From contig JARGPL010000021.1 of the NCBI GenBank assembly GCA_029210175.1, positions 1 to 64,000 of the forward strand: 64,000 nucleotides of DNA, read 5' to 3'. The position numbers and the translations under genes are program-made. This document shows, piece by piece, positions 25,016 to 63,221 of this stretch (its first letter is position 1; each line of letters opens with the position of its first letter). This stretch comes from Minwuia sp. (GTDB lineage Bacteria; Pseudomonadota; Alphaproteobacteria; Minwuiales; Minwuiaceae). A model generated the notes under the pieces. It saw only the letters and a program-made list of their open reading frames with translations. It did not search any database and was not told where the DNA came from.

Positions 25016-25111
25016 GATGCTGGAAGTACCGTTGACCTGCGCAACGGAACGCTGGTCCTGACGTGATGTTCGCCCTATTGTATTTCTCAGTCCGATTTGT
25101 GGATTGGCCGC

Positions 25112-27262
25112 GTGAGTATCGAGTCCCTCTCAGAAAATATCGACCTTGTCTGGATTATGGTCTGCACAGTCCTGGTCCTGTTGATGCAGCCTGGGTTTGC
25201 CTGCCTCGAGATCGGGCTGGTGCGCGCAAAGAACACCATCAACGTGGCGATGAAGAATATCGCTGACTTCTGCCTCGCGGCCCTGCTGTTCTGGGTGGCC
25301 GGTTACGGCATCATGTTCGGGCTCTCGCAGGGCGGTGTCATCGGATCCTCCCATTTCCTGTTCGACCCGCTGCTCGGGCCGGAGTCACCGGCACAGATGA
25401 TCGCGTTCTTCTTTTTCCAGGCGGCGTTCTGCGGCGCGGCGACGACCATCGTTTCCGGCGCTGTGGCAGAGCGGATGAGCTTTCGCGGCTATTTCGTGGT
25501 CGCCGGACTGATCAGCCTGCTGATCTATCCCCTGTTCGGCCATTGGGCCTGGGGCGGGCTGATGCTGCCGACCCAGGGCTGGTTGCAGCAGGCGGGTTTC
25601 GTGGATTTCGCAGGCTCCACCGTCGTGCATGGCATCGGCGGCTGGGTGGCGCTGGCGGCAATCATCGTTCTCGGACCGCGGATCGGGCGGTTCGGTGCGG
25701 ACGGCGGCCCCATAGAGCCACACAGCCCGCCCACCGCAATCCTCGGCATCTTCCTGCTCTGGATTGGCTGGTTCGGCTTCAACGGGGGCAGCGAACTTGC
25801 CTTGAATGGCAATGTGCCGGGCATCCTGCTCAATACAATGATGGCCGGGGTGGCCGGCAGCCTGACGGTACTGTTGCTGACCTGGTTCCTTGACGGGCGG
25901 CCAGCCGCCATGCCCGTCGCATCGGGTGCGATTTCCGGCCTCGTCGCCATCACGGCCGGTGTCCATGTGATGACCGTACCCATGGCCATGCTGGTTGGGG
26001 GGATCGGTGGTGCCGTGGGGCTGGTCGGAAGCAGTCTGCTTGCACGCTGGCGGATCGACGATGTGGTCAGTGCGGTGCCTTCACATCTGATGGCCGGCAT
26101 CTGGGGCACGCTGGCCGTGGCCCTGTTTGCGGATATGGAACGGCTCGGTACCGGGCTCGGTCGCATCGATCAGCTGGCTGTTCAGGCGCTGGGTGTGGGG
26201 GCCGCGGCGGTTGTCGGGTTCGGCATCACCCTGCCCCTGCTGATGCTGGTCAACCGGATCATGCCGCTGCGGGTGCCCGCAGAATTCGAGCGGGTCGGCC
26301 TGAACGCCTCCGAACACGGGGCCAATACGGCACTGATCGAACTGGTTGGCGCGATGGACGAGCATCGCCAGACCGGCGATTTCAGCCGCCCCGTCCGCGT
26401 CGAACCCTCGACCGAGGCGGGGGATATCGCGACGCAGTACAACCAGGTTCTGACCAGATTCTCGCAGGAGGTCGAAGGGCACCGGTTGACCAGTTCCCAT
26501 CTGCAGGAAGCACTGGGCCGCGCAGAGCTGGCGAATGCGTCGAAATCACAGTTCCTCGCCAACATGAGCCACGAACTGCGCACCCCGCTCAACGCCATCA
26601 TCGGCTTTTCCGAGATCATCCGCGATGAGATGTTCGGCCCCGTCAACAATGATCGCTACAAGGACTATGCCGTCGACATCAACAACGCCAGCAAGCACCT
26701 GCTTTCCCTTATCAACGACATTCTCGACCTGTCGAAGATCGAAGCCGACAAGTTCGATCTGTCAGACGAGCAGGTGGATATCAACGAGGTGCTGACATCC
26801 TGCCAGCGCATGCTGAACGCAAATGCTGAAGAGACGGATGTCGATCTGAGGATAACCGTGGCACCGGACCTGCCGCTGCTCCGCGCCGACAGTCGCGCAA
26901 TCCATCAGATCGTGCTGAACCTGCTGTCGAACGGCATCAAATTCACCCCGGCGGGTGGTTCGGTGTCTCTGGACGTGGTGGTGGAACCCGACGGCCGGTT
27001 GGCGATCACCGTGTGCGATACCGGCGTGGGCATTTCGAAGGAGAATATCTCGCGCGCGTTCGAGCCATTCACCCAGATCACCAACAGCAGCCTGGTCTAT
27101 TCGGCTGAAGGAACCGGGCTTGGCCTGCCTTTGACAGCCGCCCTGACGCGCCTGCATGACGCGTCGATGGTCTTTGATTCAGCGGAAGGAAAAGGCACGA
27201 CGATTGTCGTGCGCTTCCCGCTTGATCGGATCATCCCCCGGAATGTCAGGCTGTCGGCCTGA
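25112..27262 (+). CDS. Ammonium transporter-histidine kinase fusion
   Basis: A full Amt/MEP/Rh channel (about 1-395) is joined to a histidine kinase (716 residues in all). Amt features are the Phe-gate region in FFFQAAFCGAATTIVSGAVAER, VDFAGSTVVHGIGG with the first pore His and the binding-site Asp, WFGFNGGSEL, and the second pore His in AVPSHLMAGIWG. A helical linker leads to HisKA (FLANMSHELRTPLNAIIGFSEI) and HATPase (NLLSNGIKFT, DTGVGI, GTGLGL). The architecture is that of known Amt sensor kinases (Kuenenia Amt5). The start is probably GTG 25112; TTG 25097 is the alternative. Confidence 0.92.
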   Translation: MSIESLSENIDLVWIMVCTVLVLLMQPGFACLEIGLVRAKNTINVAMKNIADFCLAALLFWVAGYGIMFGLSQGGVIGSSHFLFDPLLGPESPAQMIAFFFFQAAFCGAATTIVSGAVAERMSFRGYFVVAGLISLLIYPLFGHWAWGGLMLPTQGWLQQAGFVDFAGSTVVHGIGGWVALAAIIVLGPRIGRFGADGGPIEPHSPPTAILGIFLLWIGWFGFNGGSELALNGNVPGILLNTMMAGVAGSLTVLLLTWFLDGRPAAMPVASGAISGLVAITAGVHVMTVPMAMLVGGIGGAVGLVGSSLLARWRIDDVVSAVPSHLMAGIWGTLAVALFADMERLGTGLGRIDQLAVQALGVGAAAVVGFGITLPLLMLVNRIMPLRVPAEFERVGLNASEHGANTALIELVGAMDEHRQTGDFSRPVRVEPSTEAGDIATQYNQVLTRFSQEVEGHRLTSSHLQEALGRAELANASKSQFLANMSHELRTPLNAIIGFSEIIRDEMFGPVNNDRYKDYAVDINNASKHLLSLINDILDLSKIEADKFDLSDEQVDINEVLTSCQRMLNANAEETDVDLRITVAPDLPLLRADSRAIHQIVLNLLSNGIKFTPAGGSVSLDVVVEPDGRLAITVCDTGVGISKENISRAFEPFTQITNSSLVYSAEGTGLGLPLTAALTRLHDASMVFDSAEGKGTTIVVRFPLDRIIPRNVRLSA

Positions 27263-57896: not shown

Positions 57897-58841
57897 TCAG
57901 GGGCCGATTGCGAGAACGGCTTCTGCCAGGGCAATGCGGTCGTCCAGGGTTTGCATGACGGTGCCCGTGACCGTAATCCGCAGCCCCAGTTCGGCGAGGT
58001 CTGATGCATCCGCCCGGTCCTGATTGTCGATCACCAGATGGCTGATGATGTCGCGATATCGACGGGCGATGGCACCGACACTGGGCGTTTCCCCCAGTTC
58101 GCGGAACATCTTGGCCGTTGGTCCCTTGATGGCGTCCCCGCCAACGATCGGTGAAACACAGACGATGGGCGTGCCCGTCTGCTTGAGCGCCTTGAGACGC
58201 GTGCAAACGCCGGTCAGATCAAGGATCGGGTCAATGGAGATGAACGGGTTTGACGGCCCGACGATCACCATGTCCGGCCGGTCCAGCGCCGCCATGACTT
58301 CCACCGTCGGGGCGACCGCCACGCCACCGTGCAGGGCGAAACCCGTGACCACCGGGGCGGCGTGCAGCCGAACGAAATAGTCCTGAAACGGCAGCGCACC
58401 ATCGACTGTGTTGATGATGGTCGGTGCCGCCTGATCCGTCATCGGCAGGATGCGCGGCCCGACCCCCAGCGCCGATGCAAGATGCGTCGTGACCTCTGTC
58501 AGTCGCGCACCGGCGTTCAGGCGGCGGGTGCGTTCCACATGCATGGCCAGGTCATGATCGCCGAGAAAGAACCAGTCCGGCCCGCCAAGTTCCCGCATCG
58601 CGGTCATGAAACTGTCGGTTTCCCCCGTTCGGCCCCAGCCCTGGGCCGTATTGGCGCGGCCCGACAGCGTATAGACCAGCGTGTCGATATCAGGGCAGAT
58701 ACGCAGGCCCAGGTGATCGAAGTCGTCACCGGTATTGGCAATGATGCTCAGATCGTCGGCAGGCAGCACCTGCGCCAACCCGAGCGCCAGCTTGGCCCCG
58801 CCAACCCCGCCGGACAGATAGGTGATCGCGCGTCCGCTCAT
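57897..58841 (-). CDS. cofD: 2-phospho-L-lactate (or PEP) transferase, F420 biosynthesis
   Basis: CofD joins the phosphorylated C3 unit to Fo to make F420-0 (or its dehydro form). The 314-residue protein begins YLSGGVGGAKLALGLAQ, followed by IANTGDDFDHLGLRICPDIDT, WFFLGDHDLAMHVERT, IGPSNPF-like IVGPSNPFISI and VCVSPIVGG. All are CofD motifs. The start overlaps the cofE stop by four bases. It is the last gene of npdG-cofE-cofD. Confidence 0.94.
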   Translation of the reverse strand: MSGRAITYLSGGVGGAKLALGLAQVLPADDLSIIANTGDDFDHLGLRICPDIDTLVYTLSGRANTAQGWGRTGETDSFMTAMRELGGPDWFFLGDHDLAMHVERTRRLNAGARLTEVTTHLASALGVGPRILPMTDQAAPTIINTVDGALPFQDYFVRLHAAPVVTGFALHGGVAVAPTVEVMAALDRPDMVIVGPSNPFISIDPILDLTGVCTRLKALKQTGTPIVCVSPIVGGDAIKGPTAKMFRELGETPSVGAIARRYRDIISHLVIDNQDRADASDLAELGLRITVTGTVMQTLDDRIALAEAVLAIGP

Positions 58842-59602
58842 CGAAACAGGTCCATGCCCGGTTGCCGTACCAGATCGTGCGCCGTGCCGCGGGGGCCATC
58901 GAAGGTCATGCCGCGCACCAGCACGACCGGCACGCCTTCAGCCCCCTGCCCCATGACGATGGATGCGGCGGCGGACACTTCATCAGCGATGCCAAGCTCG
59001 CTCGCCTGCAGTTCCCGGCCATCGCGATCCGGCTGGCCCCGCAGGTCCTGTACCGCAGGCAGGCCGGCGACGCCGATGGCGATCCCGGCGCTGCCCACCC
59101 GCCAGGCCCGCCCCGGGCTGTCGTTGATGACGACGGCCAGATCCACACCCGATGCCGCCACCAGCGCACGGCGCAGGGATGCGGCACTGCCGTCCGGATC
59201 CTTTGGCAGCAGCAGGATGCGTTCGCGCCCCTGCCCGTCGCGCGGCACATTGGATGCATCGATACCGGCATTCGCCAGCACATGCCCCAGATGATGACGG
59301 ACAATCAGCACGCCCGGGCGGTGGCGAACCACCTCCGACGCTTCCGACAGCACCACCTCCACCTGGCGGGGGTCCTTGTCACACTGGGCAGCGATGCGGA
59401 CAGCGCGCGCCGACGGCACGACGTCATCCAGCACGACGTAGCGGTCCTCGGCCTTGGAAATGACCTTCTGCGCCAGGACGACGACATCGCCCGCTCGCAG
59501 ACCGCCGACGGCCGCCGCTGCCTGCAGGATCATGCCCGCAAGATCAGCGCCCGGCAGCACTTCAGGCAGCCCATCCAGCCCGATCAGTTCCAGCCGTCGC
59601 AT
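58838..59602 (-). CDS. cofE: F420-0:gamma-glutamyl ligase
   Basis: CofE adds glutamates to F420-0 with GTP. The 254-residue protein has a beginning MRRLELIGLDGLPEV, GDVVVLAQKVISKAEDR, RQVEVVLSEASEVVRHRPGVLIVRHHLG with the family His, DASNVP, and NDSPGRAWRVGSAGIAIG. It lacks the C-terminal FMN domain found in actinobacterial FbiB. The ATG at 59602 gives the family start; a GTG three codons earlier is in frame. It follows npdG by 26 bases. Confidence 0.92.
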   Translation of the reverse strand: MRRLELIGLDGLPEVLPGADLAGMILQAAAAVGGLRAGDVVVLAQKVISKAEDRYVVLDDVVPSARAVRIAAQCDKDPRQVEVVLSEASEVVRHRPGVLIVRHHLGHVLANAGIDASNVPRDGQGRERILLLPKDPDGSAASLRRALVAASGVDLAVVINDSPGRAWRVGSAGIAIGVAGLPAVQDLRGQPDRDGRELQASELGIADEVSAAASIVMGQGAEGVPVVLVRGMTFDGPRGTAHDLVRQPGMDLFR

Positions 59603-59628
59603 TTGCCCCACGCCCCGGTCAGGGCCGG

Positions 59629-60303
59629 TCAGTCCATGTCCGGCAGGTTGGTGATGCGGATACCGGCGCCCGGGCTCTTGTAGCGCTTGTTCATGAAGAT
59701 CAGCACGGATGTCAGGGCTTCGGCCACGGCTGCATTGTCGATGGGGCCAACGTGATAGCCCTTCATGCCACAGACCTCCACCAGTTCGATCACCTGTTCG
59801 CGCGCGGCAACCACATTGCCAGCGACCAGCACGTCACAGTCCGGGTCATGGTCGAGGTCAGCCAGATGATCTGCGGCGACGTTCTGGAAGGCGGATACCA
59901 CCTGCACATCCGGACCGAGGAAGTCCTGCGCGGCCTTGCCGGCGGACCCTTCGGGCGGCATCTGCACCCGGCTCACCTTCGGCGGCACCAGCGGCACGGT
60001 CACATCGACGACGATCTTGCCCTGCACCAGTTCACGCACTGATTCCAGGGTCGGGCGATGGTGGGAAAACGGCACCGTCATGACAACGATCTGGCCTGCG
60101 GCGGCGGCGGCCAGATTGTCGACACCCTGCACGTTGGTGCCGGGGAACCGTGCATTCAACTCGGCGGCGGCGGCTTCGGCCTTGTCCGCCGTGCGACTGC
60201 CGATGACAACCGGATATCCGGCGCGGACCCAGCGCAGGGCAAGTCCGCCCCCCAGATCACCCGTGCCCCCGAGGACGGCGATGGTAGGTTTGGTGTCAGT
60301 CAT
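59629..60303 (-). CDS. npdG: F420-dependent NADP reductase (NpdG/Fno)
   Basis: This 224-residue enzyme transfers hydride between NADPH and F420. It has the nucleotide motif VLGGTGDLGGGLALRWVRAGY and VIGSRTADKAEA, the central VVMTVPFSHHRPTL, DVTVPLVPP and VVSAFQNVAADHL, and the terminal EVCGMKGYHVGPIDNAA. All are typical of NpdG/Fno. It is the first gene of the operon, so the cell can both make and reduce F420. The promoter must lie in the 69 bases before it or further upstream. Confidence 0.93.
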   Translation of the reverse strand: MTDTKPTIAVLGGTGDLGGGLALRWVRAGYPVVIGSRTADKAEAAAAELNARFPGTNVQGVDNLAAAAAGQIVVMTVPFSHHRPTLESVRELVQGKIVVDVTVPLVPPKVSRVQMPPEGSAGKAAQDFLGPDVQVVSAFQNVAADHLADLDHDPDCDVLVAGNVVAAREQVIELVEVCGMKGYHVGPIDNAAVAEALTSVLIFMNKRYKSPGAGIRITNLPDMD

Positions 60304-60372: not shown

Positions 60373-61476
60373 TCATCCGGTCCAGTCGGTATCATCGACG
60401 GTCAGGATACGGCGGATCTCGTCACTGACGAAACCGATGGCCATCGGGCGCTTCACACCGGGCATCAGGGTGACATCATACAGCTCTTCCACCACCCCTT
60501 CGATGCGCAACCAGTGCACGATATCGCCCGTACGCAGGTCGATGACATAGATGGCGCAGCGTGGATCCGCATCCGCACCCTTCAGCCGGTCATCCAGCGG
60601 CAGGCCGCTGAACGTCTTGTTCTCGCGCGGCTTCGACAGGCCGACCACGGCATAGTCGCCGATCAGGGTCAGACCGCGCAGGAAACCCGGACAGAATGTC
60701 ACCGGTTCGAACCGGCCCGCGTCCATGTCGATGTAACCGAACTCCCCCGTTCCGGCGTTCGACAGCCACAGCTTGCCCTGATGCCAGCGCGGGCTGTGCG
60801 GCATGGACAGGCCTTCCGCCACGATTTCGTTCGTTGCGACGTCGATGACGACACCGCCATCCACCCGGCGGTCGCGCCAGCCATCGGCCACGTCGGAGCG
60901 GCTGACCGCCGTGACGAAGCCCGGCACACCGTCGCGCATCGCCAGACCGTTCAGATGACAGCGATCCTCCGCCGCCAGCTTCGACAGGAAAGGCGGCTTC
61001 CAGACCGGCTTGAAGGAAAACCGTTCGCTGGGTTCCGCGATGCAGCCGAACAGCGTGGCAATGAAGTTCACCTGGCCCTCTGCCGTCACCGCAATGTCAT
61101 GGGTATCGACGTCGCCGGTGGTATAGCCGACCTGGGGCACATAGACCCGGTCGTAGCCCTGATGCGACTGGCCGGCTGGCAGGATGTTCTCGAACCGCCA
61201 GAGCTGATAGAGCGAGCTGAGCCAGATTGTCTGGCCATCCGCCCACATGCCCATGCAGCGGTTGAACGTGCGCTCGAACACCGACAGGCGACCATCGTCG
61301 CGCCGCCCGATCATGAACATCTTCCCCGCCTGGTAGGTCGAGAACCCCAGGCTGATATCCATATCCTTGAGCCAGTCGCCGAACTGCCGCGACGGCGTGA
61401 GGGAGAGTTTCTCGTCCGGATCGGTCGTGTTCCCGGCTGCATCCACGGCGGTCACGTCAACGTCGGTCATGGTCAT
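60373..61476 (-). CDS. TIGR03032-family protein
   Basis: The protein has 367 residues. The beginning SRQFGDWLKDMDISLGFSTYQAGKMFMIG, ERTFNRCMGMW, QTIWLSSLYQLWRFEN and RWHQGKLWLSNAGTGEFGYID are marks of TIGR03032. The repeat pattern of beta strands suggests a propeller. The function is unknown. It overlaps the TIGR02466 gene by four bases and is the last gene of a three-gene operon with a glycosyltransferase-like protein. Confidence 0.85.
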   Translation of the reverse strand: MTMTDVDVTAVDAAGNTTDPDEKLSLTPSRQFGDWLKDMDISLGFSTYQAGKMFMIGRRDDGRLSVFERTFNRCMGMWADGQTIWLSSLYQLWRFENILPAGQSHQGYDRVYVPQVGYTTGDVDTHDIAVTAEGQVNFIATLFGCIAEPSERFSFKPVWKPPFLSKLAAEDRCHLNGLAMRDGVPGFVTAVSRSDVADGWRDRRVDGGVVIDVATNEIVAEGLSMPHSPRWHQGKLWLSNAGTGEFGYIDMDAGRFEPVTFCPGFLRGLTLIGDYAVVGLSKPRENKTFSGLPLDDRLKGADADPRCAIYVIDLRTGDIVHWLRIEGVVEELYDVTLMPGVKRPMAIGFVSDEIRRILTVDDTDWTG

Positions 61477-62132
61477 TCCTGCATGGTCTTGCCCAAGCGT
61501 GGCTGTACCACGGTGGCATTGAAGACAACAGTGATGCGTTCACCGTCGCCGAAGAACGGATGCACCAGGTGCTTGCAATAGGCGGGGAACACCACGATGT
61601 CTCCGGCCAGGGGGTGGACGCGGCAGTGGGTCTTGGCGAAGCCGCGCAGGAACGTCATCTCCTGCAGGTCCAGCGGGTTGAGAATATCCAGACAGCCCTG
61701 CGGCTCCGGCTTGCCCGGCGGCACCTGCACGTAATAGATGCCGCTGATCGTGGTGCCTGCATGCACGTGCGGCGTCTGGTAATCCCGTTCCCGGTGCAGC
61801 CCGACCCAGGCGGATATCTCCACCCGCCCCTGCCGCAGCGATCCGCCCAGCACCCGGGTGATATAGTCCGTCACCGCCCTGGCAACGATGGGCTGCAACT
61901 CGGCGGCACCGTCGGGTGCATCCTGAAAGAACGTCACATCCGAATAGAACCCGCCCTGATGCGCGCGGTAATCGTCATCCGACGGGCCGCTGTGGGCCAT
62001 GTTGCGCACCGTCTGTGCAAGTCGCGCGTTCAGGGCGTCCGACCCCTGCGCCCGCCGCACCATGATCGGGCTGGCGAAGGCCCCGATCATCCGGGTTTCC
62101 GGCTCCGGGTTCTGCGCGTCGTCACTCATCAC
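61473..62132 (-). CDS. TIGR02466-family 2OG-Fe(II) oxygenase-like protein
   Basis: The 219-residue protein has a double-stranded beta-helix pattern: SAWVGLHRERDYQTP, the metal region HVHAGTTISGIYYVQVPPG, DIVVFPAYCKHLVHPFFGD with the distal His, and ERITVVFNATV with the likely oxoglutarate-binding Arg. The N-terminal FASPIMVRRAQG fits TIGR02466. It probably hydroxylates a macromolecule or sugar. It overlaps both neighbours (ATGA type), a sign of a coupled function with the glycosyltransferase-like and TIGR03032 proteins. Confidence 0.87.
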   Translation of the reverse strand: MMSDDAQNPEPETRMIGAFASPIMVRRAQGSDALNARLAQTVRNMAHSGPSDDDYRAHQGGFYSDVTFFQDAPDGAAELQPIVARAVTDYITRVLGGSLRQGRVEISAWVGLHRERDYQTPHVHAGTTISGIYYVQVPPGKPEPQGCLDILNPLDLQEMTFLRGFAKTHCRVHPLAGDIVVFPAYCKHLVHPFFGDGERITVVFNATVVQPRLGKTMQE

Positions 62133-63163
62133 TGTCCCTCCAGGGCCTTGTCGAGCATCGTCCGGGCAATCCGGGGGTGCCCGGCAGCCGCATGCAAGGT
62201 GGCAAGGCGCATGGCCTCCACCGATCCGGTCTGGCGCAGTTCAGCCATCCGGTCCTCGCTCAGTTCGGGCAGGCCATGACGCTGGATCTCCGCCACAAGT
62301 TGCGTGCGCGACAGGGACGGCAGGTTGGGCGCCACCCGCGCGGCGATGAGTCGATAGAGCGCCGCGGATCTGTCCTGCGCCCCCTCCCGCAGGCAGGCGA
62401 ACGCCGCCCGCAGCAGGTCCTGATCATGGCGGCTCCGCAGGCCGGGACGGTGATCGATGATGGGCCGCCCGATCAGATGCCGTTCCTCCGCCCCGCCGCG
62501 CCAGTTCCAGGTTTCGGGCAACCGCGCCCAGGTGAGGCCGAGCGGGTTTCGAACCGGGCTGAAACATTCGGCCAGCGCCACCTGATCGAAATAGAGCAAT
62601 TGCCGCCGCCGCGCCGGATCATCGATATGACCGACAAGCGCGTGTTTCACGGTCGCTTCCGGCGCATCGGCCATGGCCAGATTCCGCGCCAGTGCGGCCT
62701 GCCATTCGGCCAGCAGCCCCTGCACCTTCTCGCTCCGGCGAAACAGGATCACGCCCGCGTTGAAAATGGGCTGCCCCAGCAGTTGCCGCGTCAGGCTGGC
62801 GTCCGGCTGCGCCTCTGCGAATGCGATGTCCACCCGATCAAGAATCGCGAAAACCTGCCTCAGTCCCGGCTGAACCAGCCGTGCATCGGTATCCAGCGCA
62901 AAGGTCCGCTCATAGGGACTGTCCGCCAGCGCCGCCAGCCGCGCCCGCTTCGCCCCGCCTTCCGCACCGCCATCGTCACCCACAAGGTCCAGATGGCGCA
63001 CGGCATCAAACGGCGGGGTGCTGGCCAGCAGGTGTTCCGGCTGGTCGGTGAACAGAGTCACTGCCACGTCCGCCGCCAGCCGTTTCACCGACCGGGCGGA
63101 AAGGAACGCTTCCTCCACATATCGCGGCATCCGCACCGCTGTCTGAATCACACCTTGTTGCAT
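62129..63163 (-). CDS. Glycosyltransferase-like protein (GT-A pattern)
   Basis: The 344-residue protein has a GT-A-like start (VIQTAVRMPRYVEEAFLSARSV with VAVTLFTDQ), a DxD-type motif in FALDTDARLVQP, an acceptor-side PIFNAGVILFRRSEKV (typical of GT8-like enzymes) and YFDQVALAECF. The C-terminal 80 residues are helical. The sugar donor is unknown. It starts the operon with TIGR02466 and TIGR03032 genes. The amidase ends 58 bases upstream. Confidence 0.65.
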   Translation of the reverse strand: MQQGVIQTAVRMPRYVEEAFLSARSVKRLAADVAVTLFTDQPEHLLASTPPFDAVRHLDLVGDDGGAEGGAKRARLAALADSPYERTFALDTDARLVQPGLRQVFAILDRVDIAFAEAQPDASLTRQLLGQPIFNAGVILFRRSEKVQGLLAEWQAALARNLAMADAPEATVKHALVGHIDDPARRRQLLYFDQVALAECFSPVRNPLGLTWARLPETWNWRGGAEERHLIGRPIIDHRPGLRSRHDQDLLRAAFACLREGAQDRSAALYRLIAARVAPNLPSLSRTQLVAEIQRHGLPELSEDRMAELRQTGSVEAMRLATLHAAAGHPRIARTMLDKALEGQ

Positions 63164-63221
63164 GTGTTTCAGATACCGCAGATGACGGCGCGGTTCACGT
63201 GATCACGTGTACCGGATGGCT

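Follow-up and report, generated by a model that had tools for sequence, protein, structure and literature searches.

Glycosylation of an adhesin in the cytoplasm has a precedent in HMW1C (PMC3983070), and the hydroxylation of a residue followed by glycosylation of that same residue, by 2OG and glycosyltransferase enzymes, is known from LH3/PLOD3 and from the collagen-modifying enzymes of mimivirus (PMC9546862). The Skp1 pathway, too, is a precedent in which hydroxylation, here of a prolyl residue, precedes glycosylation; its AgtA has a WD40 domain that binds Skp1, according to the title of a work cited in PMC6939170 (ref67). This study concerns three genes of Minwuia sp. at 60373-63163 of a 64,000-nt stretch of DNA, hereafter the window, encoding a putative GT-A-type glycosyltransferase (GT), a 2OG-Fe(II) oxygenase (OX), and a predicted beta-propeller of TIGR03032/DUF4915, a family without known function. 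The reading that we favour, tentatively, is that the trio is a functional unit that would modify one or several large exported proteins in the cytoplasm, with the propeller as the presumed docking or processing partner.

The three open reading frames are all intact and all lie on the minus strand, with GT (344 aa) at 62129..63163, OX (219 aa) at 61473..62132, and TIGR03032 (367 aa) at 60373..61476. The 4-bp overlaps that the first-pass annotation described at both joints were seen, the one between GT and OX being conditional on an OX start at GTG. This joint (62129..62132) reads GTGA with the GTG start and becomes a 1-base overlap, TGATG, with the start at the next codon, ATG 62129; the joint between OX and TIGR03032 (61473..61476) is a clear 4-bp ATGA overlap. 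A crude hydropathy check revealed no apparent signal peptide or transmembrane helix in any of the three proteins. A perfect 14-bp palindrome, CACGTGATCACGTG, occupies 63196..63209 (no strand assigned), some 33 bp upstream of where GT starts; it is the sole copy in the window, where 0.01 would be expected allowing up to one mismatch, and it was absent from the fetched loci of other genomes. The palindrome is a possible operator, with a putative function. A horizontal origin of GT-OX was unsupported by composition, as GC and GC3 are like those of the neighbours. Elsewhere in the window, an ammonium transporter is fused to a histidine kinase (25097-27262).

Direct searches with GT gave no creditable match in Pfam, NCBIfam, or PDB sequences, and a PDB sequence search with a GT profile likewise gave no credible match. 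The profile, built from three homologues, retrieves more distant proteins, and one of these, the intermediate L087, passes PF03407 Nucleotid_trans, for which GT itself has no direct match above the cut-off. The motif set of GT comprises D91-x-D93, N135-x-G137, D193-Q194, N220, and H238; DxD, NxG, N220, and H238 are kept in all 11 aligned GT-related sequences, and DQ in nine of them. Based on this motif set and the intermediate sequence to the Nucleotid_trans/GT8-like families, GT is probably a GT-A-type transferase, as had been proposed for the first gene, and its described catalytic motif, LDTDARL, is intact as D91-x-D93. The single-sequence AlphaFold2 model of GT reached a pLDDT of 40.7, and only the predicted C-terminal helices (276-344) are usable. 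Scans of viral contigs, run with each of GT and OX and also with the GT profile, yielded no relatives. GT paralogues in Minwuia (L094, L004, L005, and in the window's own genome) carry DSHCRL at the expected place of DxD and may be inactive transferases.

OX matches PF13759 2OG-FeII_Oxy_5 (E=1.9e-17; 63.9 bits against a gathering score of 27), and the putative residues for metal and 2OG of the HxH...H...R pattern are present as H122-V-H124, H188, and R199; in an alignment to 2rg4 and 3bvc, it is H188, not H191, that takes the place of the distal His. The intact HVH motif with distal His and Arg, noted earlier, was thus found. Of the earlier label of a TIGR02466 2OG-Fe(II) oxygenase-like protein, the oxygenase part holds, whereas the TIGR02466 score (47.6 bits) falls below the curated cut-off of 62.5, so that the protein is better called TIGR02466-like. 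Judged by profile and residues, OX is a probable hydroxylase of PF13759. Literature searches returned passing mentions only of TIGR02466 and PF13759. On Streptomyces plasmids (L199:4983-6707 and L207:3953-5807), a TIGR02466 gene is directly followed by a YncE-type propeller gene; these pairs resemble the trio in the succession of oxygenase and beta-propeller, but the propeller is of another family and no GT is adjacent.

The third gene clearly belongs to its family over the full length, scoring 483 bits against TIGR03032 (cut-off 251.5) and 463 bits against PF16261/DUF4915 (E=5.5e-139; threshold 35). The AlphaFold2 model, computed from 35 sequences, is a confident six-bladed propeller (pLDDT 88.6, pTM 0.87); its nearest structural matches are six-bladed propellers of the YWTD type (nidogen 1npe, Z 23.9), followed by the SMP-30 type (Z ~20); the model and its structural matches bear out the propeller fold that the first-pass annotation considered likely. 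Across 62 homologues, two motifs are kept almost without change, EDRCHLNG and SMPHSPR. A PDB sequence search with TIGR03032 gave no credible match, and PF08450 (SMP-30/gluconolactonase) was not matched by profile. One blade nevertheless aligns with SMP-30 at 96% probability, the invariant His227 standing at the position of the metal-ligand Glu of SMP-30. The family is distributed across proteobacteria, cyanobacteria, and planctomycetes, and no mention of TIGR03032, DUF4915, or PF16261 was found in the open-access papers searched.

Conserved co-occurrence of the three families was searched in a sample of 289 alphaproteobacterial genomes, including the window's own (G000). Close homologues of GT (>180 bits) were present only in G000, G125, and G239, and those of OX (>370 bits) in the same three genomes, all of which also contain TIGR03032. 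In G239, the three genes are adjacent, in an order that differs from that of Minwuia and with TIGR03032 divergent, and their identity to the window trio is 37% for GT, 50% for OX, and 59% for TIGR03032. Since the trio recurs in a second genome at this level of identity, its linkage exceeds chance. OX and TIGR03032 are adjacent in G125, where GT is on another contig; in G700, from the genus of G125 and G239, the OX-TIGR03032 pair lies at a contig edge and the position of GT is beyond the visible sequence. The arrangements in these three genomes support a functional linkage of the trio. As G125 and G239 belong to the same genus, they represent one independent lineage with the trio besides Minwuia; the full set of three is rare, with two genera known to carry it. 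The TIGR03032 gene of G239 (L085:10357-11456) carries one frameshift, and a 91.6% identical region of G700 has an intact frame; the frameshift may therefore reflect either an error in sequencing or a gene lost recently.

Four relatives within Minwuia (L008-L011) have kept TIGR03032, with GT and OX absent from the locus; TIGR03032 therefore works without either gene beside it. The interval between an amidase gene and TIGR03032 (61476-63222) is variable in Minwuia: GT-OX occupies it in the window, L010 has nothing there, L009 has genes for a histidine kinase and NMT1, and L011 carries DabA together with an Mrp-type subunit. Downstream of TIGR03032, the F420 genes npdG-cofE-cofD (57897-60303) are found in all five Minwuia genomes. 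A more distant OX adjoins TIGR03032 in four further genomes (G187, G268, G165, and G253). The overlap of OX and TIGR03032 at the genome level is modest (p ~0.005-0.012), and their adjacency gives p ~5e-12 under a uniform-placement null that uses an approximate OX copy count and ignores relatedness. The trio thus recurs in one further genus; a widely conserved operon of the three families is unsupported, as close Minwuia relatives are without GT and OX and most TIGR03032 loci are without OX. The fixed stoichiometry that had been read from the overlaps is unsupported because gene order and strand vary, with TIGR03032 divergent in the other genus and GT on another contig in one genome.

The neighbours of TIGR03032 were counted in 67 loci from alphaproteobacteria, betaproteobacteria, cyanobacteria, planctomycetes, and others, with adjacency defined as at most 1 kb; the sample is biased to similarity with the window TIGR03032, giants were recognised partly by repeat motifs, and relatedness is uncorrected. 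Under this definition, TPR-GT41 glycosyltransferases adjoin TIGR03032 in 17 loci, RTX/FG-GAP giants in 15, autotransporters in seven, and OX in four (with two more OX slightly past 1 kb); at least one of these four kinds is present in 40 of the 67 loci. The TPR-GT41 genes, giants, and autotransporters are mostly immediate neighbours rather than being spread over the outer flanks. Among the first 37 loci, none had an OX next to TIGR03032, nor was OX adjacent to it in the betaproteobacterial loci, and G239 was the only one of the 67 with a GT homologue beside it. In the autotransporter-bearing loci L158, L160, and L163, OX and TIGR03032 are separated by a gene that weakly matches alpha/beta-hydrolases. 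Plasmid loci of TIGR03032 agree with these counts: those of Phyllobacterium, Loktanella, and two Novosphingobium carry autotransporters, and others carry a cadherin-like protein (Nostoc), VCBS (Nostoc C052), an Ig-like protein (Gloeothece), FG-GAP (Acaryochloris), and choice-of-anchor Q proteins (Planctomyces and Synechocystis).

Fusions provide the strongest evidence linking TIGR03032 to group-transfer enzymes. The fusion partner of DUF4915 is TPR-GT41 in Acaryochloris and GNAT in Gloeothece, on two Nostoc plasmids, and in one Comamonadaceae genome, while a protein of Synechocystis 6714 joins DUF4915 to TPR and matches GT9 weakly. The TIGR03032 gene of Diaphorobacter shares a 4-bp overlap with a gene whose protein carries Asp/Asn hydroxylase and sulfotransferase domains, and the locus adjoins an IPTL-CTERM protein. 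Together, these contexts and fusions suggest a concrete, testable role for TIGR03032 in the modification of giant exported proteins.

Under the favoured reading, OX would hydroxylate side chains of a target protein and GT would transfer a sugar to it, possibly onto the new hydroxyl, so that the protein may be hydroxylated and then glycosylated. The propeller would serve as a cytoplasmic adaptor that docks or processes the substrate and whose partner enzymes vary, being an oxygenase and a GT-A-like transferase in the window, and the giant protein would be decorated in the cytoplasm before export. We infer that the acceptor is a protein and, with this, which protein and which of its residues are modified, what sugar is added, in what order the steps occur, and the adaptor role. 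Concerning possible targets, the window's genome encodes an RTX/FG-GAP giant measuring 4475 aa or more, beside which lie ABC and HlyD genes for type I secretion, as well as a 2981-aa RTX/VWA protein; such RTX/FG-GAP giants are the candidates here. FG-GAP repeats occurred in all six Minwuia genomes tested, most of them in giant frames, and in none of three genomes of other families. Several observations speak against the favoured reading: no gene for a giant surface protein adjoins the Minwuia trio, whose TIGR03032 is followed by F420 genes, TIGR03032 stands without GT or OX in four Minwuia genomes, the trio is rare, and OX is not adjacent in the betaproteobacterial loci. A literature search for FG-GAP combined with modification enzymes found nothing.

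The substrate of the trio might instead be a small molecule, a lipid, or a glycan, with TIGR03032 as a metal-dependent hydrolase like SMP-30/gluconolactonase, OX hydroxylating a metabolite, and GT glycosylating a metabolite or polysaccharide. The structural resemblance of the modelled propeller to SMP-30/lactonase (Z ~20) may leave room for an enzymatic role, and the single blade alignable with SMP-30 and the active-site-like look of the invariant motifs in the 62 homologues point the same way, as do a similar TIGR02466-like OX that neighbours both an SDR and a true SMP-30 gene (G231; L162:5547-8035), SDR genes near several TIGR03032 loci, and a Qingshengfaniella locus in which glycosyltransferase genes occur together with those for SDR and acyl carrier protein. 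However, the blade matches a different blade position in SMP-30, the invariant His stands where SMP-30 has its metal-ligand Glu, and the binding propellers of nidogen and LRP reach higher scores than the SMP-30 type. As the fusions with TPR-GT41 and GNAT and the giant surface protein neighbours point to protein substrates, we consider a small-molecule or glycan substrate rather unlikely.

It is somewhat less probable still that GT and OX form a small modification pair beside which TIGR03032 is a chance operon neighbour in Minwuia, its true partner being the F420 cluster. The constant TIGR03032-npdG-cofE-cofD arrangement in the five Minwuia genomes and the location of GT-OX in the variable amidase-TIGR03032 interval would fit such a pairing, but the three genes stand together in another order in the unrelated genus of G239, OX-TIGR03032 pairs recur in further lineages, and the loci from outside Minwuia showed no F420 genes next to TIGR03032. 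The propeller could also serve giant exported proteins as a chaperone or secretion factor, the modification enzymes being only co-recruited to the same loci, since many TIGR03032 loci have giants or autotransporters as neighbours and no transferase or OX nearby. The GT41 and GNAT fusions and the hydroxylase-sulfotransferase overlap of Diaphorobacter favour a role with group-transfer enzymes instead, making a chaperone or secretion function improbable.

In a wider and distinctly speculative extension of the protein-modification reading, TIGR03032 could mark an unrecognised, widespread class of surface-protein decoration systems in bacteria, in which a conserved propeller adaptor of the cytoplasm combines with interchangeable enzymes (GT41, GT-A, GNAT, hydroxylase-sulfotransferase, or 2OG oxygenase) to act on giant RTX/FG-GAP, cadherin, or autotransporter targets. 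The version in the window would then carry out hydroxylation-primed glycosylation.

Compared with described systems, the TIGR03032 loci share with the HMW1C type (GT41) a soluble cytoplasmic transferase encoded beside a giant exported protein, and TPR-GT41 is a frequent companion of TIGR03032. HMW1C, however, is a GT-B enzyme without TPR, whereas the GT of the trio looks like GT-A and is not beside a giant gene; the HMW1C-type arrangement of a GT41 beside the gene of its exported substrate is thus not that of the Minwuia locus. To our knowledge, no propeller or hydroxylase belongs to the HMW1C system. The Skp1 pathway is similar in uniting a 2OG hydroxylase, a glycosyltransferase, and a propeller in one cytoplasmic pathway, but it is eukaryotic, uses other families, and has the propeller fused to the last transferase, so that the likeness is one of logic and no homology is claimed. 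LH3/PLOD3 and the mimivirus enzymes differ in their collagen lysine substrate, in the fused domains of LH3, and in having no separate propeller. Should the trio indeed hydroxylate a target before glycosylating it, it would represent a bacterial counterpart of the hydroxylation-glycosylation logic of the eukaryotic Skp1 and collagen systems.
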